From: Zingiber officinale
Lineage: Eukaryota > Streptophyta > Magnoliopsida > Zingiberales > Zingiberaceae
Length of the DNA stretch: 64,000 bases
Reading direction: 5' to 3'
NCBI RefSeq assembly: GCF_018446385.1
Contig: NW_024589859.1
Span: forward strand, 62,001-126,000
The notes beneath the pieces were generated by a model, which was not told the DNA's origin, ran no database searches, and saw only the letters and a list, made by a program, of their open reading frames with translations. The position numbers were made by a program, and so were the translations under genes. Below, piece after piece: positions 14,241 to 58,805 of this stretch (the stretch's first letter is position 1; each line of letters begins with the position of its first letter).

Positions 14241-14541
14241 CCAATCGATCGGCTGATCGATTGGAGTTATTTGATCGATCCACTGATCGATTCAACGTGC
14301 TACTGTGCACGGAGGTCAATTCTGGATCGATCGGATGATCGATCCAGCCTGGCCAATCGATCCGATAATCGACTCAGAGGCTCTCTGTTCGCGGAATTAA
14401 ATTCCCTGATCGATCGGATGATCGATCCATGGCCAATCGATCAGCTGATCGATTCAACAGCTCACTGTTCGCGACAGATCACTTCCCAATCGATCAGCTG
14501 ATCGATTGGGGACCCTCCAATCGATCGGCTGATCGATTGGA
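14241..14541. repeat. GATCGAT inverted-repeat doublet array, element D 3' LTR
   Basis: Eight inverted repeats with GATCGATC-type arms and 4-bp loops form four doublets with starts 14241/14271, 14323/14353, 14406/14433 and 14486/14517 (30, 30, 27 and 31 bp apart). Outer bases of the arms differ between copies but mostly still pair (ccaa with ttgg, tgga with tcca). The copy at 14485-14510 is a perfect 26-bp palindrome. Spacers between doublets share ctgttcgcgg-like words, so the whole is a tandem array of about 80 bp units. Confidence 0.88.
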
Positions 14542-15944
14542 GCTCTAATTTCTGCTGCATTTCAAAAATTTCATGTACAACATGAATGTATCAACTAATA
14601 AACACTAAACTCTTACTAAGCATGTCATGATTCATAACTTACCGACTAACATCAAGGTAACTAGAAGTCAAGGCATAACCTAATGCATACCTTCACGATT
14701 CATAACATTTAGACATTCAAAAGATGCAGAAAATAAACTATAAGGAGTTCTAATCCTTTGACTTGCTGGTCTCCAAGGTCTTTATTCCAAGTTCCTTTTC
14801 ACACACATCTTATCGTATTGCCCTCCAGCCTCCGCTAATCCATCTTCCCTTTACCTTTATCTGCAGTATAAGGAAAATGAAACTATAAGCTTGGGAGTTT
14901 AGTAAGAACCATCTACCTCACAAAACATGCATTCGAAAAAATCATGCTTTCAAAAGATGCTATTTGAAATACATGCTGATGATCATGCTGAAAATGCTAA
15001 AACATGGCATATGGACATACAAGTCATAACAATCAAAGACTGAACATGAAGCTATTTGTTATATCAATAAGAAAACTAAATTGAAGCTGAGCTGTATCCA
15101 CATATCTGGGTTGTGAAGTTTGAAAACTATTTTCATAAATAGATAAAAATACTAATCATGCTGCTGATGGGCCCAGCAATTGTACTTGCTATGCGCGCAT
15201 CCCTAACTAGATCCGAGGTAGCTAGTCCCGAATCTAGTAGGGTTTACTATGTTATGTAAACCTAGGGATGACTATGGGAGCCCAACCCAAGGACAACTAA
15301 GAGTCCAGTACAGTGCCACTGATAAAGTAAAATACTGATTCATAAGCTAGTTTATCTTATCTTGTTCTGGATAGGTTATTTGAACCTAGAGCTAGGTTAT
15401 CTAAACCTAGAGGCGACTATGGGAGCCCACCCATTGGACCGTAGTCCCATATAACTGAAACAAGATTAAGCATGCTATTTAAAATGCTTCTATGGCATTT
15501 AACTGAGTCATAAAAAAAACCTATTGTATCATATAACTGCACGAGTTATTTTATCGAGCACTTGGTGTGCTCTAACTCTCCTCAACTTGATAATCATGCA
15601 TGTGGCTGAACTAAAAGCATAAAAATGCACGATTAACTACTTATACTGCAGGTGAGGGGTTACTTACTTCCTGCGCTATGTTTCTTACAATTCCGATCGC
15701 TAGGTTTCCGGAGAAGAAGGTCTCTTCGGCGATCTTCTTACGTCAACGTGTTCTTCTCACGGAGAGGAGCGTCCTCGTATCGGAGTTGTCGCTGGAAGGT
15801 GCTCCTACAGCCCTAGGGATGGAACCCTAGTTCTCTTGGGCTTGGGCGCCGAGAGGGTGAGGATGAGGGAGGGCGGCGTCGGGTGAGGGTGAGGGATAAC
15901 AGGAGTTGTCGATCAAATATATCCTAAATCCTCACTTAAATTCC

Positions 15945-15954
15945 CTATTTATAG
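15945..15954 (-). promoter_or_regulatory. TATA box of element D 3' LTR
   Basis: Minus strand CTATAAATAG, a consensus plant TATA box; the same site in the 5' LTR is at 42963-42972. It lies about 80 bp downstream of the tRNA-like module and about 1.4 kb upstream of the palindrome array, so in this family the array would be transcribed. Confidence 0.6.
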
Positions 15955-16032
15955 TAAGTGATTAATGTGACCCAACTCAATCATAAATATAATTTCTCTC
16001 CTCTTCTTTCAACACACCCCTGCTGGGGCCCC

Positions 16033-16099
16033 CTGGTTACTAGAGTCAACCTATAAGTCATAGAGTCCATAGGTTGCGGGTTCAATTCCTGCTTAGGCT
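16033..16099 (+). other. tRNA-like module in D LTR (antisense)
   Basis: The plus strand has a perfect pol III B-box-like GGTTCAATTCC (16079-16089) about 45 bp after a weak A-box-like tggttactagagtc. It also has a stem-like repeat (ctataagtcatagag/ccataggttgc). F's LTRs have a counterpart in the same place (44868-44930, 52750-52812). It looks like a tRNA-derived remnant, not a functional tRNA gene, since no complete cloverleaf can be drawn. Confidence 0.4.
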
Positions 16100-16223
16100 G
16101 TTTTACATTTTTATTTAATTTTTGCTACTTCTGCTACTCCAAAAATTTTATAAAAATATTCTAAAATTCCATAAAAATAATAGAATATTTCTAAAATTGA
16201 TTTGAAAATTTTCGGGCATTACA

Positions 16224-16260
16224 ATCCCCCATGCCTTATAAAAAGTTCATCCTCGAACTT
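16224..16260 (-). other. Element D polypurine tract and hairpin
   Basis: Minus strand CATGGGGGAT abuts the 3' LTR. Upstream (element sense) is the hairpin AAGTTC/GAACTT (16243-16248 with 16255-16260) with loop GAGGAT. Confidence 0.8.
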
Positions 16261-18627: not shown

Positions 18628-19083
18628 TGTTGGGTTTTTCGGGCCACGAAAATCGCTTTTCGCATCGCGGAAATCCCGAAACCCCCGCCACCGGATCCGT
18701 GCGAAGATAAAACTTTCGAAAAATTACGAGTACGAGTTTCTAAACCTCGATCTACAGTAGATCTACAAAGGAGAAGGAATATACCCTTGATGCGAAGCCC
18801 TTCGCAATCCCGCTTGTCCTCGGTTCGCCGGATCTCGAAAGTGTCAAAGTAGACACTTCTCTATGGGTATCTACACAAGCAAGAGATGGAGAAAAACCTC
18901 TAAGGATGTGCTAGCAACCTTAGAGATCAGTAAGTGAGGAGAGGGAGAGCAAGAAGAAAACTCTAGAGGAAGAAGAAGATGGAGTTACTCATGCAAAATG
19001 AAACTCCTCCCTTGATTAAAATTGGCCACCCACAATTTTTGGCTTGTAACTCCCATGGAATATCAAGAGTCACCACTCTTGGT
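18628..19083 (-). repeat. Element C 3' LTR, outer segment
   Basis: 456 bp matching 62946-63400, including the GC-rich start and gatctacagtag. It is cut at 19084 by element B; the bases before the cut, ttggt, are B's target duplication. Confidence 0.88.
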
Positions 19084-20081
19084 TGTTGGAGATCGAACGG
19101 CCGGCTTGAAGGGGGGTTGGATAGACGGCACCCCCGGATACTCGCTTCTTTCTACAACGTTAGTGCGCAAGCGGAAATGGAAACAAAGCAAGTAGAAAGC
19201 TAAATACTAAAGGAAAGAATAAGAAATGCAAACCAAGCTAACACGTTGTTTAACGTGGTTCGGAGATTAGGGCTCCTACTCCACGGCTGTCCGTAAGGTG
19301 GACGATCCCGATCCTTCGGTGGATTACTCCTCGGAAAACTTCCGGCTAGCTCAAACCTCCTTGTGTGTGGAGAAACCTCACCACAACCCTCACAAGAGCT
19401 CCTTTGACGCTAGGGCACAGGTAGACTACTAATAGAGATTAACCACCTCTATTTCGTCAACTCAAACCAAGCTCCCAAGCTTTGGTTTTATAGGCCACGG
19501 GTTGGAAAACCCCGCCTACCAGTCGACTGCTAAAACATGCAGTCGACTGCCCTCTGTGGAAATTCGACCGTTACATCCCAACGGCTCGATTCCACACTAA
19601 CCGAGTGATCAGAGACATTCCCCAGTCGACTGCTACAGTACTGCTACAGTAGCGCTACAGTACTGCTACAGTAAACCCTAAAACTAGGATTTTACTCCGA
19701 GTACAATCTCTCATGCACTCGTACCCTCACCCTTATGACTCATTTGACGCTTCATTTGCAGCTTTGACCTCTTGCCTTCAAGCCTACTTCCATTGGCTCT
19801 CGCCCATCGGATGCATTCAAGCCCACGGCTCGTCCCCAATGCCATCCTTCGCGTATGCCTTGAAGTCGCTTCCATCGGCCCTTGTCCTCGCTGCCTTGTC
19901 CACGGTCCCTCGGATGCTCCATCCTTCACCGGACCCGAAGCCATCAACCTGGGTCACATGTGTATCCTGCAAACCTGCACAACTCAAATACACATATCAA
20001 ATACAAGGGTGAACCTAACTTAAACCCTTTGCCCAAACACCAAAACACATGGTCCCGCGGACCATTGGGATTGCTCCAACA
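19084..20081 (-). repeat. Element B 3' LTR
   Basis: TGTTGG...CCAACA. It contains CAGTCGACTG palindromes (19520, 19540, 19623), a TATA box (minus strand CCTATAAAACC, 19487-19498), and tandem CTACAGTA words at 19633-19675. It lacks the 13-bp-spaced palindrome trio seen in the 5' LTR. Confidence 0.92.
19487..19498 (-). promoter_or_regulatory. TATA box of element B 3' LTR
   Basis: Minus strand CCTATAAAACC, 22 bp downstream of the palindrome at 19520. The same arrangement occurs in the 5' LTR at 23236-23247. Confidence 0.6.
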
Positions 20082-20110: not shown

Positions 20111-21112
20111 GTTTAAGTTAGGGAAAACATATAGCAAATAAACATGCTAAAACAAATGGACTTACGTTGCCAAGGCTACACACTTGGACTTACACCGCCG
20201 AATGGACTTACGTTGCCAAGGCTACACACTTGGCAACCGCCGAAACAATGCACAGGGCTTTTTAAGAACCTATCCCAAGGCTCCCCCTACACCTAAGCTC
20301 CCATTGAGCTAGGATTTTCCACATAAGGCTTTTTAAGGACCTATCCCAAGGCTCCCCCTACACAAAGGTACTTTCAGGTTTTCCTAACTAAACCTTACTT
20401 CTCCCCCTTTGCCTAACATCCAAAAAGTTCTCCAACAATATCCCAATTATTGAAAACTTATCATCCAAATGACCCTAAACTCATGTATGTATCACCCATG
20501 GATCCCATACATCTATATGAGCTGACCCGGTCAAAATCTAGTGCTGAAAACACTTTCAGACTGGTATCAGTCGACTGCAAGAAGTACCAGTCGACTGCCC
20601 CCATGAAAACGAGCTTACAGAGACATTCTGTGCTCGTGAACAGTGTTACCAGTCGACTGGTAACTGTACCAGTCGACTGGTACACTATTCATGAAAAAAT
20701 CAGCCTTTTCTGGCCAACTTCAGAAATACGCCAGAAATTCCACAGACCTCCAAAAATTCCCAAATTTTGTGGAGAGGTCTATTATATCAATATCTACTTG
20801 GGAAAAATATATATAAAAATATATCTATCACCAATCCCAAGATTGACACAAAACACAAAACTAGCTAAAAAGTTCAATTGAACCTTGACCTAAAGTCCTA
20901 GTTTTGGCTTCCTCTTGATGTATTTTCCCATACTAACCCACAATGCATCCCTAGCATTGGTTTATATGGCATCTATACATCCAAAACCAATTATCATGCT
21001 ATGTGACCCCAATGTCATATTTTCAAGCATGAAACACAACCCATGTGTGCCAATTCCCTAGGTTTAAGACTCAAGTCCGTCTCCAAACCACTTGGCACAT
21101 TCCATGGCTCCT
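20111..21112 (-). other. Element B 3' noncoding region with internal CAGTCGACTG array
   Basis: One kb without supported coding. It has a direct repeat of cttacgttgccaaggctacacacttgg-type words at 20160-20240 and another of ggctttttaag..ctatcccaaggctccccctacac at 20255-20365. Two palindrome pairs lie at 20568/20588 and 20650/20670, each exactly 20 bp apart. Confidence 0.75.
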
Positions 21113-22780
21113 CTAGACTCCCAAGTAGTACCCACCTGAGATCCATTTGCCATGGGTCCCAATTTGACTCTTTGAGCTCCCCCTAGAACTCTTAGCCTTA
21201 GCCACCTCCCTAGGTGACTCATCCATAATGGCTAGGCCACATCGGTCCATCCCCGGTGACACTTGGCCTACAAACGTAACTTTCTTAACTTTGGACACCT
21301 TATCCTTAGTTAATTTCTTCTTACCATTAAATGGCTTTCCCTTGCCATTTATTGACTTCTCCTTGCTATAGTCATATGCAACCCGAGCATAAGACTTTCC
21401 CTTAGCCTTGGAGACCTCTCCCTTGCCATGATCATTTGTCATCCTAGCATATGAACTCTCATTGGCCTTGGAGGGACTAGATCGGTATCCCAAGTCCGAT
21501 CTATCATTGTTGGGTCTTTGGCTACCCAACATCATCCTTAATTCCTTAGATCCAACATTGAATCTCTTAAGGAATTGTTCCAACTTATCAAGCTTTCCCC
21601 TTAAAGCTTGATTCTCCTTCTCTAGGTTTCTAACCCTAGAGTTAATTTGTCCAAATTGGACATTCCTAGACCTACCTTTCCTAGGCATGTGTCTCCCCTT
21701 CTTGGGATTAATGCCTTGGTTCTCTATTACCTTCTTCTCCTTAGGTAATGAGAATTTAACTTTCCTAGGTCTATCATGCATAGGTATCCTAGGGTTATGA
21801 TCAACATTTACCCTATTCTTATCATGATATTTAAATCCAAAATTTTGCATGGGCATACAATGATAATCACAATCATTTCTCCTAGCATGCATGGGAACAT
21901 GAAAATTTGAATTGCATTTCAAATTAGGGTATACCTCCCTTACCCTTGAAGCTCCCCCTTGATTTGAGCTCTTCTTCTTCTTCTCCCATTTCTTTAGATG
22001 CGCAAGTTTCTTGATTTCCCTCTTCTTGGGACATTTTGTGTGGTAGTGGCCCTTCTCCCCACATGTGAAGCATGTAATGCACATTCTCCTCCTTTGGGCT
22101 TCTTCATTCCTACAACCCATGTTAGTATTCAAAATAACTTGATTGGGTTTAGGAGTTACCTTCTTCTTACCCAATGGACACCTACTCTTGTAGTGTCCCT
22201 TCTCATTGCAACCGAAGCAAATGATATGGTCCTTTGACTTTGCTTCGGTGGAGGTGCTCACTAGGTTGACCTCCAAGATCTCTTCTCCCTCCGTCTTGGA
22301 TTCTTCTTCAACCCTTGAGGATGTTGACGATGCTTCTTCATCCTCCTTCTCCTCCTTGGAAGTTGAGCATGACTCAACTTCCGTTTGCTCCTCTTCAACT
22401 TGAGCAACTAGACCCATCTCAATGGGTTCTTCGTCCTCTTGTGTAGGTTTAGGTTCTTCTTGTAGAACCATCTTTACCTTGCTCCACAACTCGTGGGCGT
22501 TCTTATACTCACCTACACCATTTATCACATGATTAGGCAAAATATCAATCAATATAGATATTACCTTTGAATTTGCCTCCGATCGTGTGGTTTGCTCTTC
22601 CATCCAATGTCGTGGTCGGAGCCTTTTTCCCTTCTTGTCTCTTGGGACTTCGAACGGGTACTTGATCACCATCATTGTATCCCAATCCGTGTCGAAGAAG
22701 ACTTCCATCTTCATCATCCAAAATGTGATGTCCCCAAGGCTTCCTCCTTCAAACTTTGGCGGTTCTATCAAGCTGGTCAT
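21113..22780 (-). CDS. gag: Gag of element B
   Basis: An intact 555-residue frame starting MTSLIEPPKFEGG. The copia Gag capsid-like domain is at the N-terminus (ITFWMMKMEVFFD, then PNHVINGVGEYKNAHELWSK). An acidic Glu/Ser-rich stretch follows at about residues 115-175, then two CCHC zinc knuckles near residues 190 and 235 (CFGCNEKGHYKSRC and CFTCGEKGHYHTKC). Then come a basic region and a coiled-coil-like segment with ENQALRGKLDKLEQFLKRF. It resembles SIRE-type Gag. It would bind RNA and form particles; enzymes must come from another element. The open frame over 1.67 kb argues for recent mobility. Confidence 0.88.
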   Translation of the reverse strand: MTSLIEPPKFEGGSLGDITFWMMKMEVFFDTDWDTMMVIKYPFEVPRDKKGKRLRPRHWMEEQTTRSEANSKVISILIDILPNHVINGVGEYKNAHELWSKVKMVLQEEPKPTQEDEEPIEMGLVAQVEEEQTEVESCSTSKEEKEDEEASSTSSRVEEESKTEGEEILEVNLVSTSTEAKSKDHIICFGCNEKGHYKSRCPLGKKKVTPKPNQVILNTNMGCRNEEAQRRRMCITCFTCGEKGHYHTKCPKKREIKKLAHLKKWEKKKKSSNQGGASRVREVYPNLKCNSNFHVPMHARRNDCDYHCMPMQNFGFKYHDKNRVNVDHNPRIPMHDRPRKVKFSLPKEKKVIENQGINPKKGRHMPRKGRSRNVQFGQINSRVRNLEKENQALRGKLDKLEQFLKRFNVGSKELRMMLGSQRPNNDRSDLGYRSSPSKANESSYARMTNDHGKGEVSKAKGKSYARVAYDYSKEKSINGKGKPFNGKKKLTKDKVSKVKKVTFVGQVSPGMDRCGLAIMDESPREVAKAKSSRGSSKSQIGTHGKWISGGYYLGV

Positions 22781-22821
22781 CTTGTGCTTCCTTGGCGGTT
22801 AGTCCAACGGAGAGCGCCCTC

Positions 22822-22833: not shown

Positions 22834-22835
22834 CT

Positions 22836-23879
22836 TGTTAGAGATCGGACGGCTGGCTTGAAGGGGGGTTGGATAGACGGCACCCCCGGATACTCGCTTC
22901 TTTCTACAACGTTAGTGCGCAATGGGAAATGGAAACAAAGCAAGTAGAAAGCTAAATACTAAAGGAAAGAATAAGAAATGCAAACCAAGCTAACACGTTG
23001 TTTAACGTGGTTCAGAGATTAGGGCTCCTACTCCATGGCTGTCCGTAAGGTGGACGATCCTGATCCTTCGGTGAATTACTCCCCGGGAAAACTTCCGGCT
23101 AGCTCAAACCTCCTTGTGGGTGGAAAACCTCACCACAACCCTCACAAGAGCTCCTTTGACACTAGGGCACAGGTAGACTACTAATAGAGATTAACCACCT
23201 CTATTTCGTCAACTCAAACCAAGCTCCCAAGCTTTAGTTTTATAGGTCACGGGTTGGAAAACCCCGCCTACCAGTCGACTGCTAAAACATGCAGTCGACT
23301 GCCCTCTGTGGAAATTCGACCGATACATCCCAACGGCTCGATTCCACACATTCTGTTCGCTGCCAGTCGACTGCCCCAGTTGACTGCACCAGTCGACTGC
23401 TAAAACATGCAGTCGACTGCTACAGTACTACTACAGTAGCGCTATAGTACTGCTACAGTAGCGCTACAGTAAACCCTAAAACTAGGATTTTAATCCGAGT
23501 ACAATCTCTCATGCACTCGTACCCTCACCCTTATGACTCATTTGACGCTTCATTTGCAGCTTTGACCTCTTGCCTTCAAGCCTACTTCCTTTGGCTCTCG
23601 TCTATCGGATGCATTCAAGCCCGTGGCTCGTCCCCAATGCCATCCTTCATGTATGCCTCGAAGTCGCTTCTATCGGCCCTTGTCCTCGCTGCCTTGTCCA
23701 CGGTCCCTCGGATGCTCCATCCTTCACCGGACCCGAAGCCATCAACCTGGGTCACATGTGTATCCTGCAAACCTGCACAACTCAAATACACATATCAAAT
23801 ACAAGGGTGAACCTAACTTAAACCCTTTGCCCAAACACCAAAACACATGGTCCCGTGGACCATTGGGATTGCTCCAACA
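22836..23879 (-). repeat. Element B 5' LTR with CAGTCGACTG array
   Basis: Palindromes start at 23272, 23292, 23364, 23377 (one mismatch), 23390 and 23410; spacings within groups are 20, 13, 13 and 20 bp. The TATA box (minus strand GACCTATAAAACT, 23236-23247) is 25 bp downstream of the first palindrome in transcription sense. Tandem CTACAGTA words follow at 23420-23470. Confidence 0.92.
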
Positions 23880-23884
23880 TTGGT

Positions 23885-30012: not shown

Positions 30013-31294
30013 CGCGAGTTGCTTCTAAGAGCCTTCTTGGATATGGGAGCAATCACCACCACCTAGGCAAAGCCTTTTAAGGAAAGCTAATATTTATTTC
30101 CTTAAATAACTCTAGGTTAACCAAAAAGAACAATCGAATCACAAATTCAAAAAAGAAGAAAACACAAACTCAAAAAAACTATTTCGAAAATTGTAGAATC
30201 ATATGCCTCTTGTGTTTGGTATTTCCATAAATAACTATACAAAGAAAACTAGTATGATGCGGAAAATAATTACTATTTATACCTTTCTTTGTAAGCAAAA
30301 TAACCTCTTGATCTTCTACCGTATTCCTCTTCTTATCCCGGACGTTGTGTGGGCAACGATCTACCGAGATGAGAACCACCCAAACCCTTCTTCTCCAAGC
30401 AAGTTTCAGCCACCACATAAGCTCCAAGAGATGTGAGGTTCGACCACCACCACCAAGCTCCAAGGGATGCTAGAAACGAAGCCTTCTTTCTCTCCTTCTC
30501 CTAGCTAGAACCGGCCACCATGGACTTCCCTTATGTTGATGCCGCCGGCCACAAAGAGGAAGAGAAAAGAAGGATAAGAGGAGACCCTAGGGCCGGCCAC
30601 ACCAAGGAAGAAAAGAGAGGAAGAAAATAATAGAGTCGTTAGCCATGAAGGCACCTCTACCCCCTCTTTTATATTCCTTGGTCTTGGCAAATAAGAAAAT
30701 TTTAATAAAAACTTCCTTAATTCCTTTTCCATGAAAAAGAAATTTTAATTGATTTAAAATCAATTCCTTTTTTCAATTTCAATGGCCGGCCACTTATTTC
30801 CCCAAAACAAGGAGAGTTTTAATTAAAACAAAAATTAAAACTTCCTAATTTGTTTCCAGAAATTTATAAAAAATTTCTCCAATAATTTTTCCCTTCATGG
30901 TGGATTATAAAAAGAAAATTTTATAAATTAAAATCTTTCTTTTAAACATGTGGATAATTTTCAAAAAGGAAAGTTATCTCTAAAAATTAAAATCTCTTTT
31001 CAATCTACAAATAAGGAAAGATATCAAATCTTTTCTTAATCTTTTGTAGAAACTAATAAAAGAGAATATTTAATTTTTAAAACTCTCTTTTAAATTATGA
31101 TCATGGTTAAAAAGGAAAGTTTTCTCAAAATTAAAATCTCCTTTCAAACTACAAATAAGGAAAGATTTCAAAATCTTTTCTTAATCTTTTGTAGAAAGTT
31201 ATAAAAAGAAAGATTAAAATTTTAAACTCTCTTTTAAAATCATGATATCCACATAAGAAATAATTTTAATAAAAATCCTTTTTAATATTCTAGT

Positions 31295-31401
31295 GGCCGG
31301 CCACCTAAGCTTGGGACCCAAGCTTTGGCCGGCCACCAACTTGGCTCATCCACTAAGTCTTGGCCGGCCCTAGCTTGGGTTCCAACCTAGCTTGGCCGGC
31401 C
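31295..31401. repeat. GGCCGGCC palindrome array in A2
   Basis: Four perfect octamers start at 31295, 31327, 31362 and 31394 (32, 35 and 32 bp apart), each near an aagctt or agcttgg word. Confidence 0.8.
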
Positions 31402-33183: not shown

Positions 33184-33186
33184 GAT

Positions 33187-41013: not shown

Positions 41014-41016
41014 CTC

Positions 41017-43241
41017 TGTAACGCCCCGCCTCCTACTGACTAAGCTGTAAGGCCGGGGGTTACTTACATTGTGCTAAACTGAACTATAAGGTGCGGAAAG
41101 CTGTACTAATTAAAATCTCACTCTACTAATGACTAGTAAAATCTATAACTTGTGTTCAAAATACCTTGTCATTGTTGTACATACACTAAAGAATGGGACC
41201 TAAACTTTCCATTTGATCAAAAAGCTGAAATCAGACATTTCTAGCTGAAATCAGACTTTCCAATCGATCGGCTTATCGATTGGAGTTATTTGATCGATCC
41301 ACTAATCGATTCAACGTGCTACTGTGCACGGAGGTCAATTCTGGATCGATCGGATGATCGATCCAGCTTGGCCAATTGATCCGATAATCGACTCAGAGGC
41401 TCTCTGTTCGCGGAATTAAATTCACCGATCGATCGGCTGATCGATCCATGGCCAATCGATCAGCTGATCGATTCAACAGCTCACTGTTCGCGGCATATCA
41501 CTTCCCAATCGATCGGCTGATCGATTGGGGACCCTCCAATCGATCGACTGATCGATTGGAGCTCTGATTTCTACAGTATTTCAGAAATTTCATGTACAAC
41601 ATGAATGTATCAACTAATAAACACTAAACTCTTACTAAGCATGCCATGATTCATAACTTACCGACTAACATCAAGGTAACGAGAAGTCTAGGCATAACCT
41701 AATGCATACCTTCGCGATTCATAACATTTAGACATTCAAAAGATGCATAAAATAAACTATCAGGAGTTCTAATCCTTTGACTTGCTGGTCTCCAAGGTCT
41801 TTATTCCAAGTACCTTCTCACACACATCTTGTCGCATTGCCCTCCAGCCTCCACTAATCCATCTTCCCTTTACCTTTATCTGCAGTATAAGGAAAATGAA
41901 ACTATAAGCTTGGGAGCTTAGTAAGAACCATCTACCTCACAAACATGCATTCGAAGAAATCATGCTTTCAAAATATGCTATTTGAAATACATGCTGATGA
42001 TCATGCTGAAAATGCTAAAACATGGCATATAGAAATACAAGTCATAGCAATCAAAGACTGAACATGAAGCTATTTGTTATATCAATAAGAAAACTAAACT
42101 GAAGCTGAGCTGTATCCACATATCTGGGTTGTGAAGTTTGAAACTATTTTCATAAATAGATAAAAATACTAATCATGCTGCTGATAGACCCGGCAACTGT
42201 ACTTGCTATGCGCGCATCCCTAACTAGATCCGAGGTAGCTAGTCCCGAATCTAGTAGGGTTTATTAGGTTATCTAAACCTAGGGACGACTATGGGAGCCC
42301 AACCCAAAGACAACTAAGAGTCCAGTATAATGCCACTGATAAAGTAAAATACTGATTCATAAACTAGTTTATCTTATCTTGTTCTGGCTAGGTTATCTGA
42401 ACCTAGAGCTAGGTTATCTAAACCTAGAGGTGACTATGGGAGCCCACCCATTGGACCGTAGTCCCATATAATTGAAACAGGATTAAGCATGCTATTTAAA
42501 ATGCTTCTATGGCATTTAACTGAGTCATAAAAAAAAACCTACTATATCATATAACTGCACGATTCATTTTATCGAGCTCTTGGTGTGCTCTAACTCTCCT
42601 CAACTTGATAATCATGCATGTGGCTGAACTAAAAGCATAAAAATGCACGATTAACTAATTATACTGCAGGTGAGGGGTTACTTACTTCCTGCGCTAAGTT
42701 TCTTACAATTCCGATCGCTAAGTTTCCGGAGAAGAAGGTCTCTTCGGCGATCTTCTTACGTCAACGTGTTCTTCTCGCGGAGAGGAGCGTCCTGGTATCC
42801 GAGTTGTCGCCGGAAGGTGCTCCTACGGCCCTAGGGATGGAACCCTAGTTCTCTTGGGCTTGGGCGCCGAGAGGGTGAGGATGAGGGAGGGCGGCGTCGG
42901 GTGAGGGTGAGGGATAACAGGAGTTGTCGATCAAATATATCCTAAATCCTCACTTAAATTCCCTATTTATATTAAGTGATTAATGTGACCCAACTCAATC
43001 ATAAATATAATTTCTCTCCTCTTCTTTCAGCACACCCCTGCTGGGGCCCCCTTGTTACTAGAGTCACCTTATAAGTCATAGAGTCCATAGGTTGCAAGTT
43101 CAATTCCCGCTTAGGCTGTTTTACGTTTTTATTTAATTTTTGCTACTTCTGCTACTCCAAAAATTCTATAAAAATATTCTAAAATTCCAGAAAAATAATA
43201 GAATATTTCTAAAATTGATTTGAGAATTTTTAGGCGTTACA
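41017..43241 (-). repeat. Element D 5' LTR
   Basis: 2225 bp, near-identical to 13998-16223. It carries the same four GATCGAT doublets (about 41260-41562), TATA box (42963-42972) and tRNA-like module (about 43051-43117). Several palindromes show single decays (for example ggcttatcgat, aattgatccg). The outer end is followed by F's LTR sequence at 43242. Confidence 0.92.
41260..41562. repeat. GATCGAT inverted-repeat doublet array, element D 5' LTR
   Basis: Same four doublets and spacing as 14241-14541. Differences are mostly single substitutions in one arm. The third doublet has exchanged ggat for ggct in the loop. Confidence 0.85.
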
Positions 43242-45011
43242 TTCCTCACGGCCGTGCCACCTTGGCCGAGGGGAAGAGGTGCACGGCCGTGTGATTCCAC
43301 ACGATCGTGTCACCTTAGCCGAGGGGAAACAACAGGAGGCCGTGTGAACCCGCACGACCATGACACGGGCCGTGTGGAGGTCACATCCCTTGCTCCGTAA
43401 AAGAGGTTGATCTCCCCCTTGTAATCATCCTTGGCCTACCATTTTATCCCTTTACTTAAGGAGGAGTCTTTGACACACAAATTACTATCAAACTATAAAT
43501 TTAACATAACAACCCTTACTAGTGTTTCAGGTAAAGCGGAAATAAGGAAATACATTAGCTCCAAAGTTTAACTTAGCAAATTCCAGGATCTTCTTCCACT
43601 ATTCCATTGCACACACACCAAAACACTGCTCCAGCTGCGTCCTCCTACTCGAGCTTTCCTTTACCTTTATCTGCAGTATAAGGAAATGCAAATCTATAAG
43701 CGGATGCTTAGTAAATACCATCTACTCACAAAATGATGCATTTAAGGAGGATATGTTTTCTTTTTAAAACTGCTTGCAGAAAGCACAAAACTTACACTTG
43801 ACCGTAATTCACGTTAAAACGCTTAAATCCGAATTACATACATGGCATGCATTTTTAAATAGGTTGGTATGCAAAACATTAACTCAAACAGTGCTAGTAA
43901 TATAATGAAAACAGGAATGTTGGCATACCAAAGCGGTCACGAATGCTGCACTTTAGAACTCAATTTCTCAACTTAGGAAGCTTACACTAAAACAAACCAT
44001 GAAGTTTGAAATATTATAGTACATAATTAGTGAAAATAGTAATCAACTTGCTTGGGTCCGACATTATATCACTTTGCGCGCATCCTTAATAAGATCCGAG
44101 GTAGCTAATCCCGAACCTATCAAGGTACTACTAGGCGGTCTAGGAGCCCACCCATGGACCTTGTGTCTAGTACATGTCTTTCTAAAGTAAAATACTTTCT
44201 TTTAACTATTAATTTCTTGTACTTGCACTTGCTTGACATTTAACCAAACATCTTATGGACGCTTAATTCCCCCATACTCATAGGGAAGCACTTTAGACAC
44301 TTGATTATACTTCTTAGTTCCAAAACTTAATGGGAAGCAAATCAAGACGATCTAAATATGCTCTTAATCCCAAAACTTTTAGAGGGCATCAAACATAACA
44401 TGACATGCTTCTTCCTTAACTTGTTTAAAGCATATCTCAACATGCATCTCCTAAATCATGCATAAAAGACATTACAAAATGCATCTTTAAAGTGACTTAT
44501 ACTTCAGGTGAGGGGTACTTATCTCCTTTCGCTAGATCTTACTATTCTAAGGTGTAGGGAAGACCAAAATCCTCCCTCGTATGCCTTAATCTCCGAGTCA
44601 CCTTTCACCCACATACTACCTCCTTGGAAGAAACCCTCCTCTTAGATTCCCTCCTTGGAAAGCTTCAAGACTTGGAGCCCTAGGTTTCTTGGCCGAAACT
44701 TGAAAGGAGGGAGAAGAGGATTCGGCTAGAGAGGAAAGGAAGAGAAAGATTAGGTTTTGTTCTCATCCAACCCCTTTTATACTAAGTGGAAATTGGAGCA
44801 TCTCTTCCCATACAATCTACATATAATGAATTGTTTCATATTGCTCATGTGATGCTTTATCACCATCCTAATGGCAACTTAAACTAATCTCAACTAAGAG
44901 GTCTCGGGTTCAAATCCTAACCCGGGCCATTTATGAATATATTTTTATTTCTTTTCTCTTCTTTTATTTATTTTTGTCCTTTTTGAATAGAGGAAATTTA
45001 TGGGTGATACA
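43242..45011 (-). repeat. Element F 3' LTR, third segment
   Basis: Continuation of F's LTR beyond element D: the rest of the palindrome array (43250-43385), the shared gcgcatcc/gatccgaggtagcta block at 44080-44110, TATA-like ttttatac near 44775, the tRNA-like module (44868-44930), and the LTR end gggtgataca. Confidence 0.9.
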
Positions 45012-46671: not shown

Positions 46672-48230
46672 CTATAGGGGATGTACCATAGCAGCTATAG
46701 ACGATAAAGTTGCACAAGATTTCCTACTTAGTGCATCTACCACTTTGTTCGCTTTCCTTGGATGGTAGAAGATTTCACAGTCATAGTCCTTGACCTGCTC
46801 CAGCCATCTCCGCTGTCTCATGTTCAGGTCTTTTTGAGTGAAGATATACCTAAGACTCTGGTGATTTGTGTAAATCTTGTACTGAGCTCCATATAAGTAA
46901 TGTCTCCAAATTTTGAGAGCGAACACTACCGCTGCTAACTCAAGGTCATGAGTAGGATAGTTCTTCTCATAATCCTTGAGTTGTCTCGAGGCATAAGTGA
47001 TGACCTTGCCATTCTGCATCAGTACAACCCCGAGTCCCAATTTAGAAGCATTATTGTAAATGTCGAAGCTTTCTTTATTCTCTGGGGGAGTCAGGATTGG
47101 GGCACTGGTCAATCTCCCTTTCAGTTCAGTGAAACTCTTCTCACAATCCTCTGTCCATTCAAACTTTCGGTTCTTTCTGGTAAGTGATGTCAGTGGTGTG
47201 GCGATCCTGGAGAAGTTCTCTACAAATTTCATGTAGTAGGCTGCTAACCCAAGGAAACTCCTTATTTCACTAGAATTCTTAGGTCTATTCCAGTTACTCA
47301 CAGCTTCTATTTTTGTCGGGTCTACCATAACCCCATCCTTAGAAATAATGTGGCCTAGTAAGGACACTTGCTCGAGCCAGAACTCGCACTTGGAGAACTT
47401 TGCGTACAATTGGCTCTGCTGAAGAATTTGTAATACTATCTTCAGATGTTCAACATGTTCTTCCTGAGTTCTGGAGTATATAAGGATATCATCTATGAAG
47501 ATAATTACAAACTTGTCTAGATACGCCTTGAATACCCTGTTCATCAGATCCATAAAAGTGGCAGGAGCGTTCGTCACTCCAAAAGGCATAACCACAAACT
47601 CATAGTGCCTATACCTCGTTTGGAATGCCATCTTCGACACATCATCCGCTTTCACTTTCACTTGATGATATCCAGATCGCAAGTCTATCTTGGAAAAGAC
47701 CGTGGCTCCCTTTAACTGAGCAAATAGATCATTAATTCTTGGCAGGGGATACTTGTTTTTGATGGTTACTTTATTTAGCGCTCGGTAGTCCACGCACATT
47801 CGCATGGACCCGTCCTTCTTCTTTACAAACAACACTGGAGCTCCCCATGGTGAGTGACTATGGTGAATAAAACCCTTGTCAAGAAGCTCTTTTAGTTGTC
47901 CCTGGAGTTCTTTCAATTCTGCCAAAGCCATGCGGTAGGGTGGTTTTGAGATTGGATGGGTACCAAGGATGAGTTTAATCTTAAATTCAATTTCCCTATA
48001 CGGAGCTAAGCCTGACAACTCATCCGGAAACACTTTCGGGTAGTCACATACGACTCTAACCTCCTATAGCTTTTGAGTTCTTTCTTGCTGGGTGTTAACC
48101 ACATGAGCTAGAAACCTGGAACATCCATCGGCTAACATTTTCTGAGCTTTTATGGCCGATAAGAATTTATGGGTTCTCTTCCTTGATTCTCCGATGAACT
48201 CAAATTTAGACTCTGCCTCAGGTTAGAATA
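46672..48230 (-). pseudogene. Reverse transcriptase and RNase H of element F
   Basis: A 453-residue open frame (48033 to 46672) plus an N-terminal part with a stop near 48065. RT motifs: [49 protein letters not shown] and [10 protein letters not shown]. RNase H: the usual TDAS reads NNAS ([10 protein letters not shown]) and the usual YTDHQS reads YTNHQS, so two catalytic Asp positions appear changed to Asn. Both changes fit G-to-A transitions on the coding strand. Confidence 0.86.
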
Positions 48231-48297
48231 AGACTCTTTGCTTATGACACTCGATGGAAGTACCATACTTGCTCAGAAAGTCCATCCCAAAAATGAC

Positions 48298-48939
48298 TAT
48301 TGGGGTTGCAAGGTTGCAAACATAGTCCCATATTGGAAACACATGGGAAAGATCATGAGTTTATAAGAGAAAAGATATCTCCATTGGTATGAGGCCTTTT
48401 GGGGAGAGCCCAAGAGCAAAGCCATGAGGGCCTAGGCCCAAAGTGGACAATATCATACCATTGTCGAGATATCTAAATTATTTTCGATCCAACAATTGGT
48501 ATCAGAGCCCGGACTGCCAGAAGGTTTAACCGTCGACTGTGCACAAGAGCTATGCTCTGATTGAGCCATGTGGGTACAATATTGACCTCGAACAAAGAAA
48601 GTGGGGGCTCCTATGTTCAGATCAAGAGGACCAGACACCAGGCAGAAAGTCCTAGTAGGTCGGGTGGACAGAGGGGCAGGAAGACCTGGTGGGTCAAGGA
48701 TCAGACGTGGGAAGCCTATGGTCCTTTGTTTGAGGGGGGGATTGTTGGGGTTGCAAGGTTGCAAACATAGTCCCATATTGGAAACACATGGGAAAGATCA
48801 TGGGTTTATAAGAGAAAAGATATCTCCATTGGTATGAGGCCTTTTGGGGAGAGCCCAAGAGCAAAGCCATGAGGGCCTAGGCCCAAAGTGGACAATATTA
48901 TACCATTGTGGAGATATCTAAATTCTTTTCGATCCAACA
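48298..48939 (+). mobile_element. TRIM (terminal-repeat retrotransposon in miniature)
   Basis: 642 bp with two 197-bp terminal repeats (48298-48494, 48743-48939) that differ at only a few bases, a perfect ATGAC duplication (48293-48297, 48940-48944), an initiator-Met primer site TGGTATCAGAGC (48497-48508), and a purine tract TTTGAGGGGGGGA before the second repeat. The 248-bp interior has no coding function. The first base pair of the left repeat has decayed from TG to TA. It moves only with borrowed enzymes. Confidence 0.93.
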
Positions 48940-48944
48940 ATGAC

Positions 48945-50652: not shown

Positions 50653-50664
50653 GCTCTGATACCA
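50653..50664 (-). other. Primer-binding site of element F (initiator tRNA-Met)
   Basis: Minus strand TGGTATCAGAGC, three bases from the 5' LTR at 50668. Confidence 0.9.
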
Positions 50665-50667
50665 AAC

Positions 50668-52895
50668 TGTAACGCTCGCCCTTCTACTAGCCTTAAACTT
50701 ACAAGACACACATTACCCTTTTTCTCGTTCTGTCTAAATTTCGACATTCTTACCTATTATATGCTACTCAGTCCATAGATCTATTCTAACTTGTTACAAC
50801 TGGTAGGACATGACTTGTAACCAAGCAAAGCTGAAAGGGAGTTTAAAGCTTCTAACGGGTCTGGGCTGAGTGGCCCTGACAAGTAGGGTACTCCCAGCTG
50901 GCGCAGGGCATGGCCATGTAAGGGTCACACGACCGTGACCCTCAACAGTGGAAAAGAAAGGGCACGACCATGTGAACTCACACGGCCATGTCACTTTGGC
51001 CGAGAGGAAAAGAGACACGACTGTGTGAATCCACATGGCCGTGCGGCTTTGGCCGAGAGGAGTAGGTGCACGGCCATATGATTCCATACGGCCATGTCAC
51101 CTTGGCCGAGGGAAGGAGGTGCACGACCGTGTGATTCCACACGACCGTGTCACCTTGGCCGAGGGGAAGAGGTGCACCACCGTGTGATTCCACACGGTCG
51201 TGTCACCTTGGCCGAGGGGATCTGTACGGCCGTGACATGGGTCGTGCGGAGGTCACCCCTTGCTCCGTAAAAGAGGTTGATCTCGCTCTTATAATCATCC
51301 TTGGTCTACCATTTTATCCCTTTACTTAAGGAGGAGTCTTTGACACATAAATTACTATCAAACTATAAATTTAACATAACAACCCTTACTAGTGTTTTAG
51401 GTAAAGCGAAAATAAGGAAATACATTAGCTCCAAAGTTTAACTTAGCAAATTCTAGGATCTTCTTCCACTATTCCATTTCACACACACCAAAACACTGCT
51501 CCGGCTGCCTCCTCCTACTCGAGCTTTCCTTTACCTTTATTTGCAGTATAAGGAAATGCAAATTTAGAAGTGAATGCTTAGTAAGTACCATCTACTTACA
51601 AAATAATGCATTTAAGGAGGATATGTTTTCTTTTTAAAATTGCTTGCGGAAAGCACAAAACTTACACTTGACCGTAATTCACGTTAAAATGCTTAAATCC
51701 GAATTACATACATGGCATGCATTTTTAAATAGGTTGGTATGCAAAACATTAAGTCAAACAGTGCTAGTAATATAATGAAAATAGGAATGTTGGCATACCA
51801 AAGCGATCACCAATGCTTCACTTTAGAACTCAATTTCTCAACTTAGGAAGCTTACACTAAAACAAACCATGAAGTTTGAAACATTATAGTACATAATTAG
51901 TGAAAATAGTAATCAACTTGCTTGGACCCGACGTTGTACCACTTTGGGCGCATCCTTAATAAGATTCGAGGTAGCTAATCCCGAACCTATCAAGGTACTA
52001 CTAGGCGGTCTAGGAGCCTAGGGGCGATTTAGGAGCCCACCCATGGACCTTGAGTCTAGTACATGCCTTTCTAAAGTAAAATACATTCTATTAGCTATTA
52101 ATTTCTTGTACTTGCACTTGCATGGCATTTAACCAAACACCTTATGGGTGCTTAATTCCCCCATACTCATAGGGGAGCACTTTAGGCACTTGATTATACT
52201 TCTTAGTCCCAAAACTTAATGGGAAGAAAATCAAGATGATCTAAATATGCTCTTAATCCCAAAACTTTTAGAGGGCATCAAACATAACATGACATGCTTC
52301 TTCCTTAACTTGTCTAAAGCATATCTCAACTCTCCTAAATCATGCATAAAAGACATTACAAAATGCATCTTTAAAGTGACTTATACTGCAGGTGAGGGGT
52401 ACTTACCTCCTTTCACTAGATCTTACTATTCTAAGGTGTAGGGAAGACCAAAATCCTCCCTCGTATGTCTTAATCTCTGAGTCGCCCTTCACCCAGGTAC
52501 TAACTCCTTGGAAGAAACCCTCCCCTTAGATTCTCTCCTTGGAAAGCTTCAAGACTTGGAGCCCTAGGTTTCTTGGCCGAAACTTGAAAGGAGGGAGAAG
52601 AGGATTCGACTAGAGAGGAAAGGAAGAGAAAGATTAGGTTTTGTTCTCATCCAACCCGTTTTATACTAAGTGGAAATTGGAGCATCTCTTCCTATATAAT
52701 CTACATATAATGAATTGTTTCATATTGCTCATGTGATGCTTTACCACCACCCTAATAACAACTTAAACTAATCTCAACTAATAGGTCTCGTGTTCAAATC
52801 CAAGCCCGGGCCATTTATGAATATATTTTTATTTCTTTTTTCTTCTTTTATTTATTTTTGTCCTTTTTGAATAGAGAAAATTTATGGGTGTTACA
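50668..52895 (-). repeat. Element F 5' LTR
   Basis: 2228 bp, TGTAA...TTACA, followed by the CCAAC duplication. On the minus strand: tRNA-like module (52750-52812), TATA-like GTATAAAAC (52658-52666), then about 1.4 kb, then the ACACGGCCGTGT array (50906-51250) near the LTR's 3' end. Confidence 0.92.
50906..51250. repeat. ACACGGCCGTGT doublet array, element F 5' LTR
   Basis: Tandem units of about 53 bp, each with two palindromes separated by gattcc or similar (starts about 18 bp apart) and then caccttggccgagggg. Most palindromes carry CG-to-CA/TG or C-to-T decay (acgaccgtg, acggccatg). It uses the same core palindrome as element H although the elements belong to different lineages. Confidence 0.85.
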
Positions 52896-53284: not shown

Positions 53285-54560
53285 TCACTCGTCCTCATCA
53301 TCATCGGTAGCTCGAAGATAATCAAATATCCTACGCTACTTCTTCTCTAAGGCATCAACACGATCAGTCATATCCTGGAGAAAATCTTCAATTTGTCCTT
53401 AGAGGAAGTTGTATTGATCTGTTATCCTGGTTTCGAGGGAGTCAAACCAGCCAAAAATGTCATCTCGAAGATGACTAAAAAAGTCTCTGGTCGGTGGTGG
53501 GGGTGCATAAGAACTGCCCTGAGCAGTATCAAAAAGAGGTGTCAATGCAAATCTTGGATAAAAAGGCTGCTGATGGTGCTCTTCGATCGGAATCGGCTCC
53601 TCCTCAACTACATCTTCCTCGACTACAGCTGGTGCGTATCGAGGGTGGGTCCATTTATACACAAGTCCTTCAGCACTAGTCCTAATCCCAGCTAAAGACA
53701 ACTACCTAATCCCAACATGATCAAAATCGGACAACTCAATCAACTCACCACGGTGAACTCCTACCCCTAGAGAAATAATGTAAGTAGTGAGTACGTGGCA
53801 CTGGATCATGTGAACTTTATTCGAGATACTGTACCCCAAATAGTAGATAATAGATTTGAACACCCAGTAATCTAAGTCAAAGTCAAGTTAGTGTCTTAGT
53901 GCGTACATCAGAAAAAGATGTACTGGACGTAGAACTTCCTGATCTCCAGACGACAAAGGATGAATGCAAGAAACTACCATAAAGGGCATTGTCATTTAGA
54001 CTAAATGGTACAATATACATCTTTTTGGGTCGTGCCCCCTCAAAGAAATCAACATACATAAGATCAAGAGTAAGATGCACGAAAAGAGTGGGCAGTATGT
54101 CAGGAAGGGAAGCGCTAAAAAATATATGGTTAACAGAAGATCGAATTCTCAAAAATTTGAGAAACATCTCAAGGTCAAATAGCATATCCCTAGTTGCAAC
54201 GCTAGTTTTATAATGATGGGAATCAATTTCACACAAATTATGATAGAATTCAGAACACAGAATAGGGTTGTAAGCATGTCGACAGAAGATAATGCTATCA
54301 AGTTGAAAATGTTGAGTAATGTCTATGACCTCAGGACAATAAGTTTGATAGAAAGGAAAGTCAAGACAATGAGTTCTGATAACTTTAAATTTTTTATTAG
54401 GAAAAGATTGACGTAGATCTTCAGTTGAGAATCTAGGGTCCTGGCTAGGATTTAAGGAGCTAGCCTCCCGTTGTGTAGTTGTACGACTCTTTTCACTATT
54501 ATTAAAGGAATGAAATAAATAAATCTAAATAGATATAGAAATAAGATTTAGAAAGAGATT
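53285..54560 (-). pseudogene. ORF2 of element G, decayed
   Basis: Minus-strand frames read, without a clear first Met, REASSLNPSQDP, FKVIRTHCLDFPFYQTYC, CSEFYHNLCEIDSHHYKTSV, IFFSASLPDILP and DLMYVDFFEGARPKK. After a frameshift near 53880 come VYYLGYSISNKVHM and GVHRGELIELSDFDH. After a stop near 53702 come LVYKWTHPRYAP and EDVVEEEPIPIEE, and a C-terminal helical part (DFLQDMTDRVDALEKK) ending in an acidic DDDEDE at 53285. The layout (conserved middle, helical end) resembles ORF2 of element H. A GT...AG intron-like gap may lie between 54565 and 54500. Function unknown. Confidence 0.6.
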
Positions 54561-54664
54561 ACTGAGGCATTTTCACATTCCGAGAAAGGTTGTAGGTGGC
54601 GAAATAGACGAAGACGACATAGAAGGAGAAGAAGGAGGGGTGAGAGTGGAATGAGATCCAGTGT

Positions 54665-54679
54665 CGTATTTATAGAGTA
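54665..54679 (-). promoter_or_regulatory. TATA box upstream of G ORF2
   Basis: Minus strand ACTCTATAAATACG, a consensus TATA box. It is followed by a CT-rich leader (CTCATTCCACTCTCACCCC...) and an ATG at about 54623-54621 (reads MSSSSISPPTTFLG). It is immediately downstream, in transcription sense, of the palindrome array at 54681-55010, so ORF2 probably had its own promoter. Confidence 0.65.
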
Positions 54680-54680
54680 T

Positions 54681-55010
54681 GATCGGTCAACTGATAAGGG
54701 GTTCGGTCAACCGATCCCTTAAAAACCTACGTTTTTGACAAATGGTTGGAGTTTGATCGATCAAACCTATGTTTCGGTCGACCGATAAATTGAACAAGAT
54801 ATGATATAAATTAGGTTTTCAGTTGATAGAACCTGTGTTTGGTCAGCTGAATAATTGAAGACGGTTCAATTTTCGGTGATAAATTTATGATTTCGATTGA
54901 CCGATTCCCGTGTTCGGTCGATCGAACCAATAATTGCTTGACTTTATGAGTTCAGTGCGTAATTCTAAGGAATGGTTTATTTGGTTGACCGAATAAGGCG
55001 TTCGGTCGAC
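54681..55010. repeat. Internal TCGGTCGACCGA array of element G
   Basis: Repeated palindromes built on TTCGGTCGACCGAA with decayed forms (ggtcaaccgat, ggtcgatcgaac, gatcgatc). Paired copies are about 20-22 bp apart. It includes the perfect 16-bp GTTTGATCGATCAAAC near 54746. The same motif family occupies G's LTR. Confidence 0.8.
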
Positions 55011-55262
55011 CGATCTGGTTTTTTTAATAGATAATTAAGTTTATTAAGTCAGGTTAAGATTTAAGTTTGAATCTTATTATTTATTAGGTTGTAAAATATT
55101 TTAAGTTTTAAAATAGTTATAATTAAGTTTAAAAATTTTAATTAAGTTAGTTTGTTTTGATTATATTTTAATTTAAAGGTTTTAATTAATTTTGAGGTTA
55201 AGTTAACAATTTTAGATTTAATAATTTCATTTTAATTTATGTTAATAGTAATAATTTTTTAG

Positions 55263-55298
<36 letters not shown>

Positions 55299-55690
55299 TG
55301 ATTCAATAATTATAAGTTGAGTTTTAAGTTGGATTAATATATACTTTTTATTTTATGTTGAATTTAGTTAAATTGACTTTAGATTTAAGTTTTAATTATT
55401 TTCCAAATTTAACTTTAAGTTAAGTTTAAAATAATTTTAGATTTAGGTTTGAATTAATTTATGATTTAAGTTATGTTTTAAGTTCAAGTTAATTAGATTT
55501 AAATTGAATTAAGTTTAAAATTTTAAGTTTAAGTTAAAGTTTTAGTTAATTTTATTTTTAATTTTACATTTAAATTTAATTAGGTTTTAATTTAATTAAG
55601 TTAACAAAAATTTAAGTTTAAGTTTTAATTAATTTTAGATTTTAAGATTTAAGTTAGAGTGGATTCGATTAGATTAGATAAAGAGCCTAC
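55011..55690. repeat. AT-rich low-complexity tract in element G
   Basis: Degenerate repeats of ttaagttt(t)a and ttaattttaga, with a (TTA)n run at about 55264-55300 and a poly-A run near 55691. A complementary low-complexity tract (aactcaaatccaaa, ctctaaattta) lies in element I at 60180-60330. Confidence 0.75.
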
Positions 55691-57751: not shown

Positions 57752-57918
57752 CTTTGCTATCAAAAAAAAAATGAAAAAGAAGATTTCCATGACTCTCATC
57801 TTGGGATTAATAGTGCAGGATAAAAAGATTAAGAATGAAAAAAAAATCTTTTTAAGAGGAGAAGAAAAAGATTTTAAAATTGCTTTGAAAAATTATTAAG
57901 TATTTTCAGGGCTACCAT

Positions 57919-57930
57919 GCTTTGATACCA
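57919..57930 (-). other. Primer-binding site of element G
   Basis: Minus strand TGGTATCAAAGC, two bases from the LTR, one mismatch to the initiator-Met complement. Confidence 0.8.
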
Positions 57931-58396
57931 ATTGAAGGATCGATAGAAAGTGATAGAGGGGGGGGGGGTGAATATCGCTCTTTAAAAACTTTTTTTTTCA
58001 TATCATAAAACCAATCAAAGTAAGCAGCGGAAATTAAAACAGATAACTCAAGTGGTTATTTGGTTCGGAGCCTACGTCGATTCCTACTCCAAAACCCATG
58101 ATCCTTGATTGCACCATTAGGCAATTCACTATGATTCTTCTTTCTAAAATCTTCGGAAAGAAGCAATGCGTACAAATGCAAGTAGAAGATAGTAACAACC
58201 TACTATCTTCTTTTCAATTTAATTACAAAGCAAGCTTAAATAAATATACCGACACAAGTGGAAAACGAAGCTTGGTCGACACTTTAACGATGCAGCAACT
58301 TGCTTAAAGACGAGTAGCAGAGTAGTAGCACGAGCAGCTTTGCACAGAGATGAATTGGTGAAACTGATTCGTTGCTAAGCCTCGGACCTCGAGCTC

Positions 58397-58410
58397 CTTT
58401 TTATAAGAAT
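58397..58410 (-). promoter_or_regulatory. TATA box of element G 5' LTR
   Basis: Minus strand TTCTTATAAAAAGG, within about 10 bp of the last palindrome of the array. Confidence 0.62.
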
Positions 58411-58414
58411 CATC

Positions 58415-58805
58415 AACGTTCGGTCGATCAATCCTTGGGTTTGGTTGACTGAACCCACTCCCTTTCCTTCTTCGCTGAGATATGATCTTCGGCCATTGAT
58501 GACATTTGATGGTTCGGTCGATTGATCACCTTGTTCGGTCGATCGAATAGTGAATTTCCCTATTCGCAATGATTCGCACTGAATGCCTCATTAATGTAGT
58601 GGTCATTTGGTCTATCGATCTCCACATTCGGTCAACCGATCAACCTGACTTCCTTCTTTGCTTTGGGTTGAGTCTGTCTGCCATGTCATCATTGTTCAGT
58701 ATATCGATCTGCTGGTTTGGTCAACCGATCAAGCTTTGAATGGACTTTGCCCTGTTCTGCTCTGGTTTGATTTTTTATCTGAATTAACTTAGTTCGATCA
58801 ACCGA
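58415..58805. repeat. TCGGTCGACCGA doublet array, element G 5' LTR
   Basis: At least five pairs of palindromes (for example near 58425/58446, 58515/58536, 58615/58636 and 58705/58726) about 21 bp apart, most decayed at CG. Pairs are separated by about 65-80 bp. Confidence 0.78.

Follow-up and report, generated by a model that had tools for sequence, protein, structure and literature searches.

A stretch of 64,000 nucleotides from Zingiber officinale (NW_024589859.1; C78:62001-126000; called the window below) was found to contain long terminal repeat (LTR) retrotransposons, here lettered A to H, in which short palindromic words, mostly one to a family, stand in paired arrays close to promoters, both within the LTRs and upstream of an additional open reading frame (aORF) of the PF20167/PF03078 type. 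These words are probably (at a rough probability of 0.55) sites for the accessory protein that the elements encode, which would probably act as a dimer and activate or de-silence the LTR and aORF promoters. An earlier note on the same DNA had described one array of paired, CG-centred palindromes per LTR family and had proposed a dimeric protein with one specificity per family, comparable to the VANC anti-silencing proteins of VANDAL elements. Its observation was partly confirmed, being largely right and reaching beyond the window; its interpretation is partly supported and, as predicted binding, is now the best-supported reading, with the exception of its appeal to helical turns. The VANC-like dimer reading is favoured because spacing is fixed while spacers vary, because non-palindromic intermediates are rare, and because arrays precede diverged accessory genes of one family.

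The genome (3.09 Gb, 211 contigs) was searched on the forward strand for doublets, defined as two identical words separated by 0-30 bases, with the reversed word as control. All seven words counted are palindromic, and all lie far above their controls: CAGTCGACTG gave 29,410 doublets (control 7), AAGGCGCCTT 26,929 (0), CGGTCGACCG 11,618 (54), CAATCGATTG 9,653 (0), CACGGCCGTG 2,559 (1) and GGCCGGCC 55,427 (4,236), and the inverted-arm motif already recognised in D, ATCGATC-N4-GATCGAT, was present 239,928 times (117). These counts would be doubled if the assembly holds two haplotypes, as it may. Within the window, the words were recovered at the stretches reported for H, D, B and A and, for G, at 54774 and 55002; at 50906-51250 and 58415-58805 only decayed variants, and no intact CACGGCCGTG or TCGGTCGACCGA, respectively, were found. 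The CG centre ascribed to all families applies to B, G, A and the arms of D, and not to the H/F word ACACGGCCGTGT, which has a GC centre with CG on either side.

An unselected sample (20 loci of 10 kb, 200 kb in total) was taken at round positions irrespective of content, five loci lying on contig C1 and most of the rest 50 kb in from the start of their contig. CG-centred palindromes exceeded expectation in this sample (10-mers 65 vs 30.9; 12-mers 32 vs 9.6), GC-centred 10-mers showed no excess (39 vs 37.8), and AT- and TA-centred 10-mers showed a mild, 1.3-1.4-fold one (136 vs 101.2 and 128 vs 93.4); the corresponding 10-base figures for the window were 28 vs 6.4 (CG-centred) and 33 vs 11.2 (GC-centred). 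Identical CG-containing 8-mer pairs at most 60 bp apart, counted over the sample loci and the window, comprised 66 palindromic pairs vs 982 non-palindromic ones, a palindromic share of 6.7% where about 0.4% is expected. Further words in the sample were AAGGCGCCTT (loci L011, L016 and L019), AATCGATT (L014) and GGGCGCCC (L012 and L022). The twofold CG-centred 10-mer excess, absent for GC-centred 10-mers, and the CG centre of most words would be compatible with CG-dense arrays that act through DNA methylation, by way of readers of dense methylated CG that recruit demethylases, with no word-specific protein; fixed spacing and word identity are left unexplained by such a mechanism and the H/F word is GC-centred, and we accord it very little probability.

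Spacings were determined from the first 50 places listed per word. For the B word, 35 of the 50 pairs were exactly 20 bp apart and nine were at 12-13 bp; the five pairs in the window for which exactly 20 bp had been claimed have that distance (19520/19540, 20568/20588, 20650/20670, 23272/23292 and 23390/23410). CACGGCCGTG pairs were found at 17-19 bp (24/50) and at 35-36 bp (19/50), AAGGCGCCTT pairs at 20-23 bp (40/50), and the listed doublets of CGGTCGACCG, the core word of G, nearly all at 21 bp and in a few cases at 14. The D motif often recurred at 30-31 and 50-53 bp, and the A word mostly at 25-35 bp, its window sites at 31295-31394 being 32, 35 and 32 bp apart, as reported. L014, with AATCGATT, gave spacings of 20, 33, 12, 19 and 20 bp, a B-like pattern with a different word. 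Random spacing, which the earlier note had named as fatal to its proposal, was thus not seen in the listed copies. Spacer length is held more strictly than spacer sequence: the B pairs at 20 bp had 23 distinct spacers with some resemblance to one another (median pair identity 0.50; five mutually below 60%), and the CACGGCCGTG pairs at 35 bp had 15 (median 0.36; seven mutually below 60%). An argument from helical phase was considered and rejected, and the whole-turn spacing of the earlier note was dropped with it, because distances of 12-14, 17-19 and 35 bp (17-19 and 35-36 for CACGGCCGTG, 12-13 beside 20 for B, 14 beside 21 for G) do not resemble whole turns.

The same data bear on neutral tandem duplication of a chance palindrome, with which it would agree that the arrays are partly tandem repeats and that the number of sites is unequal between the two LTRs of one element. 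Duplication of this kind would leave the whole unit homologous, spacer included; the spacers at 35 bp are mostly unlike, and spacing is kept while spacers vary. It would also double words one step off a palindrome as often as their palindromic neighbours, which was not the case for the two intermediates tested: the non-palindromic CAATCGACTG formed 432 doublets (203+229) vs 29,410 and 9,653 for its neighbours CAGTCGACTG and CAATCGATTG, and CGGTCGACTG formed 494 (251+243) vs 11,618 for CGGTCGACCG. The 432 asymmetric doublets exceed the approximately 179 predicted by decay, so some asymmetric arrays may arise. Given in addition that all seven genome-wide words are palindromic and that related LTRs carry different words, neutral duplication is considered highly improbable as the source of the arrays.

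Conservation was compared column by column. Between elements, palindrome columns were more identical than other columns in nine of ten pairs (non-CpG columns pooled, 282/319 vs 6143/7721), the exception being L021-L031 (17/23 vs 631/779); within elements they were ahead in four of eight (non-CpG, 219/234 vs 7252/7571). Fisher's test on the between- and within-element differences gave p 0.038, and CpG columns differed little (between, 106/148 vs 647/939; within, 99/115 vs 659/772). The slower arm decay implied by the earlier proposal was therefore seen between elements and not within them; with elements reused across pairs and an array alignment that may favour matches, the comparison lends weak support to constraint on the palindrome arms.

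The arrays are promoter-proximal, a point missed by the earlier note. Location within LTRs was established by an LTR pair, found by self-comparison of the window, for H, D, B and F only; the same self-comparison yielded no direct-repeat LTR pair for A or G, the two A stretches being inverted copies. Arrays also lie outside the LTRs, at an internal position in H and B and before the accessory frame in G (Table 1), so that an LTR feature is too narrow a description. Seven loci were chosen for having two arrays about 3-8 kb apart and, conditional on that choice, all seven contained a long direct repeat with sites in each of its two copies (in L029 the left copy holds one intact site); L019, from the unselected sample, likewise had sites in both copies. 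TATAAA or TATAAG followed the array in five of the 13 LTRs scanned in element orientation, at 11-51 bp (27 bp in B and L028, 38 in L029, 51 in L025, 11 in L027), and TATTTAAA followed it at about 30 bp in three more (H, L030 and L019). The arrays of D and F occupy the last quarter of the LTR, at an equal relative place and with different words, in LTRs that have two common stretches at 73.6% and 75.2%; short common stretches (65-76 nt) join L012 with L011, L026 and L027, and L014 with L025. Arrays were observed in elements with a copia-type gag (PF14223; L025, L027 and L012) and in the Athila-like/Ty3-type H, F and D, and the plan thus spans two superfamilies.

A genome search with PF20167 returned 7,315 first-look candidates, of which 150 were scored, all above the cut-off. 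From these best-scoring 150 places, eight genes were selected to cover a range of scores and frame lengths, and their promoters were fetched; seven of the genes were preceded by an array (one CG palindrome present at least five times within 400 bp), a mark reached by 1.4% of 20,000 windows of that length taken from the 20 sample loci. The palindrome was GTCGAC in L032 and L035 and ATCGAT in L033 and L036-L039. In the stretch fetched for the remaining gene, L034, other repeats occur in approximately the first 215 bp, the expected array position, so its array may have been displaced. L032 and L035 each carry four sites 20, 13 and 20 bp apart, with a TATA-like box 13 bp on; no TATAAA or TATAAG was present within 300 bp in the ATCGAT group or in H. 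The sole C1 place among the 150 within the listed CAATCGATTG range is preceded by a CAATCGATTG doublet at approximately 975 bp, as judged from coordinates alone. The H layout, an array before a PF03078 frame, recurs in L030 (PF03078 5.1e-24, above the cut-off; PF20167 3.9e-4, below it), and in these two members of one family the LTR word is also the word before the aORF. In L012, three GGGCGCCC-type sites are followed 9 bp on by TATAAA and then by a PF20167 frame (1.1e-9, below its cut-off), and a word of this type also ends a direct repeat, probably an LTR, that is cut by the end of the locus. With the L012 protein as tblastn query, the frame behind the G array and an L008 frame behind a decayed AAGGCGCCTT array were recovered.

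Where the words differ, the accessory proteins behind them have diverged strongly. In an alignment of 11 accessory sequences, identity over the domain was 65-88% among pairs with the ATCGATC word and 15-40% between pairs with different known words, these ranges leaving out L034, L044 and P0001, for which the word is absent or unknown; L044 and L040 were 96% identical. P0001 was the one homologue from outside this genome among 7,994 candidates scored.

According to the main rival explanation, host transcription factors, which frequently bind palindromes as dimers, read the arrays, a different factor for each family, and the sites at LTR and aORF are kept for co-expression. A site beside a TATA box is ordinary plant promoter layout, and arrays are present in elements that gave no aORF match, as in B, L025, L028 and L029, which have arrays and gag-like frames. 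LTR elements elsewhere are known to rely on host factors, ONSEN reportedly using heat-shock factors. At least seven words, each with thousands of occurrences, would however require a separate host factor each, and divergence of accessory proteins behind different words is not called for, a weak objection in that sharing within a class is plain descent. Reading by host factors is on balance unlikely, if less so than any other alternative. The self-complementary doublets might instead form hairpins in element RNA or single strands, for packaging or dimerisation, since palindrome copies can pair with each other and with themselves. A hairpin needs complementary arms and not arms that are individually palindromic, and the arrays of L032, L035 and G lie upstream of a TATA box before the aORF and so would fall outside that mRNA; a structural role is accordingly held to be highly improbable.

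Several results weigh against sites for an element-encoded protein. Coupled change was looked for inside the living CAGTCGACTG family and rejected: among 51 listed second sites with G3 changed to A, four were symmetric and 47 were not, as independent decay would give with p of about 0.055, so that symmetry is visible between families only. The seven array-bearing PF20167 genes represent two words and related copies and are not independent, and exact words stay below the five-site mark in H (3), L030 (2), G (2), L012 (4) and L008 (1). Whichever model holds, relatedness by itself would lead members of a class to have a word and a protein type in common. In L027 the LTRs carry AGGCGCCT (709-952, 8167-8377) and an internal array carries GATCGATC (1898-2092), with no aORF match, which either speaks against one word per element or marks a second promoter module. 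Within the window, the tblastn queries used gave no aORF match for A, D or F, and TATAAA or TATAAG was absent after the array in eight of the 13 LTRs scanned. No known DNA-binding domain was found in Pfam at E<=10 in six accessory proteins, a search whose filters drop most weak matches and from which L040-L044 were left out. The AlphaFold model of L040 is weak (mean predicted local distance difference test score, pLDDT, 59.7; predicted template modelling score 0.55); in it a mixed domain spans roughly 54-260 and the C-terminal helix scores lower again (pLDDT 43-54). A search by sequence at E<=1 matched L040 to no solved structure.

If the words are nevertheless sites of the accessory protein, the arrays would be promoter-proximal, high-density putative binding sites, and the aORF product would be a nuclear protein that dimerises, perhaps through its C-terminal helix. 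One dimer would occupy each palindrome and neighbouring dimers would cooperate at the set spacing; by binding its own promoter and the LTR, the protein would raise transcription or prevent silencing. Non-autonomous elements would keep the sites and borrow the protein in trans, B, L025, L028 and L029 being the would-be users, and word turnover would reflect co-evolution of protein and sites. In a wider form, for which we consider the chances evenly balanced, the PF20167/PF03078 proteins would be a widespread, undescribed self-recognition class of dimeric activators or anti-silencers, whose specificity diversified to cover seven or more palindromic words, all following one spacing plan, in copia-type as well as Athila/Ty3-type elements, and whose circuits are parasitised by non-autonomous elements through their LTR words.

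Comparison with known systems was made with the accessible parts of the papers cited. VANC anti-silencing proteins act for VANDAL (Mutator-like, MULE) DNA transposons of Arabidopsis through non-palindromic motifs (PMC5735166). Dense, family-specific short motifs in non-coding DNA beside element genes are found both there and here, as are motifs that change from family to family, an accessory protein that the element itself encodes, and fast gain and loss by tandem repeats (PMC5735166). The VANC motifs YAGTATTAY and AGTTGTCC are non-palindromic, those of VANC21 standing in one orientation, whereas the words described here are palindromic; VANC carries DUF1985/DUF287, which did not turn up in the present proteins; and the VANC system resides in DNA transposons, the present arrays in LTR retrotransposons of copia and Athila/Ty3 type (PMC5735166). 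The search of the six accessory proteins, with the same limits, gave no DUF1985 at E<=10. Foamy-virus Tas binds the LTR promoter and an internal promoter, and the elements described here may resemble that circuit, the same kind of sites being carried at the LTR and at an internal position, with one word at both in H and L030 (one family) and probably in L012, and with two words in L027; the accessible text makes no mention of paired-palindrome sites (PMC4929722). The PF20167/PF03078 frames belong to the additional open reading frames of plant LTR elements, among which an Athila aORF of sunflower is reported to resemble PF20167 and to bear a nuclear localisation signal, gene23 of maize Grande is served by a promoter of its own, and the Retand aORFs have a different domain, TRP28, predicted to bind DNA; in their accessible parts, these papers do not connect any aORF with arrays of palindromes or with a site that the LTR has as well (PMC7264820, PMC11728184, PMC11963269). 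Retand also has family-specific tandem arrays inside the element; these lie between pol and the 3' LTR, unlike those described here, and neither palindromes nor a promoter position are mentioned in the part seen (PMC11963269). No paper tying palindrome arrays in LTRs to aORFs was found in the literature searched, outside which most subscription papers lie.

The genome itself proposes a target site for aORF proteins. Word-specific activation of LTRs, if true, would provide a natural set of orthogonal protein-DNA pairs and a second case of VANC-like co-evolution, and would explain the high copy number of non-autonomous elements.

Table 1. Elements of the window and their arrays (window coordinates).
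Feature	Positions	Strand	Basis or remark
F array, first part of left LTR	1768..1942	.	self-comparison and word scan
A sites GGCCGGCC, 100 bp apart; LTR not established	2918..3026	.	word scan
H 3' LTR	3821..5507	-	98% identical to 11365-13062
H array ACACGGCCGTGT in 3' LTR	4896..5284	.	word scan
Open frame, 288 amino acids, beyond and overlapping H accessory ORF	6563..7429	-	no Pfam family at E<=0.001
H accessory ORF	7399..8100	-	PF03078 ATHILA ORF-1, E 3.8e-21
H internal array, directly upstream of accessory ORF	8283..8574	.	word scan
H aspartic protease ORF	8724..9329	-	PF13650
H gag ORF	9557..11203	-	PF03732
H 5' LTR	11365..13062	-	LTR pair
H array in 5' LTR, then TATTTAAA	12439..12838	.	word scan
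D LTR copy	13995..16227	- (inferred via homology to F)	LTR pair
D array ATCGATC-N4-GATCGAT	14241..14541	.	word scan
B 3' LTR	19083..20081	-	LTR pair, 91.5%
B array CAGTCGACTG and ACTGCTACAGT repeats	19520..19673	.	word and repeat scan
B internal array, two 20-bp doublets	20568..20684	.	aligns 74% over 119 nt to array before accessory gene L032
B gag-like ORF with zinc knuckle	21113..22798	-	PF00098
B 5' LTR	22835..23879	-	LTR pair
TATAAA, 27 bp downstream of B array	23239..23244	-	TATA scan
B array in 5' LTR	23272..23471	.	word scan
A array GGCCGGCC, 32-35 bp spacing; LTR not established	31293..31401	.	word scan
Second D LTR copy	41014..43245	-	96% identity
D array, second LTR	41260..41562	.	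word scan
F array, remainder of left LTR, split off by nested insertions	43247..43385	.	self-comparison and word scan
F reverse transcriptase / RNase H ORF	46672..48063	-	profile search
F right (5') LTR	50662..52895	-	LTR pair
F array in right LTR, decayed word variants	50906..51250	.	word scan
G accessory gene, PF20167-like, two frames	53651..54488	-	tblastn with L012 ORF, E 4.8e-44; no Pfam match of its own
TATAAA, 8 bp downstream of G array, before accessory gene	54669..54674	-	TATA scan
G array TCGGTCGACCGA and decayed forms	54681..55013	.	word scan
Second G stretch, decayed forms only; LTR not established	58415..58805	.	word scan

The left LTR of F was recovered by self-comparison in two pieces (1542-1959 and 43241-45011), having been broken within its own palindrome array (1959 / 43241) by approximately 41 kb of nested elements. 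Palindromes are reportedly often targeted by LTR elements, according to the title of a 2019 paper. Next to the B palindromes (19629-19673 and 23416-23471) stands an 11/22-bp array of ACTGCTACAGT, built from the B half-site CAGT/ACTG facing outward. At 48295-48941, two copies of approximately 200 bp, 97% identical and 445 bp apart, were observed; these copies also align with the initial 130 bp of L034 and, through it, with L010. A long (TA)n tract occupies 62595-62735.

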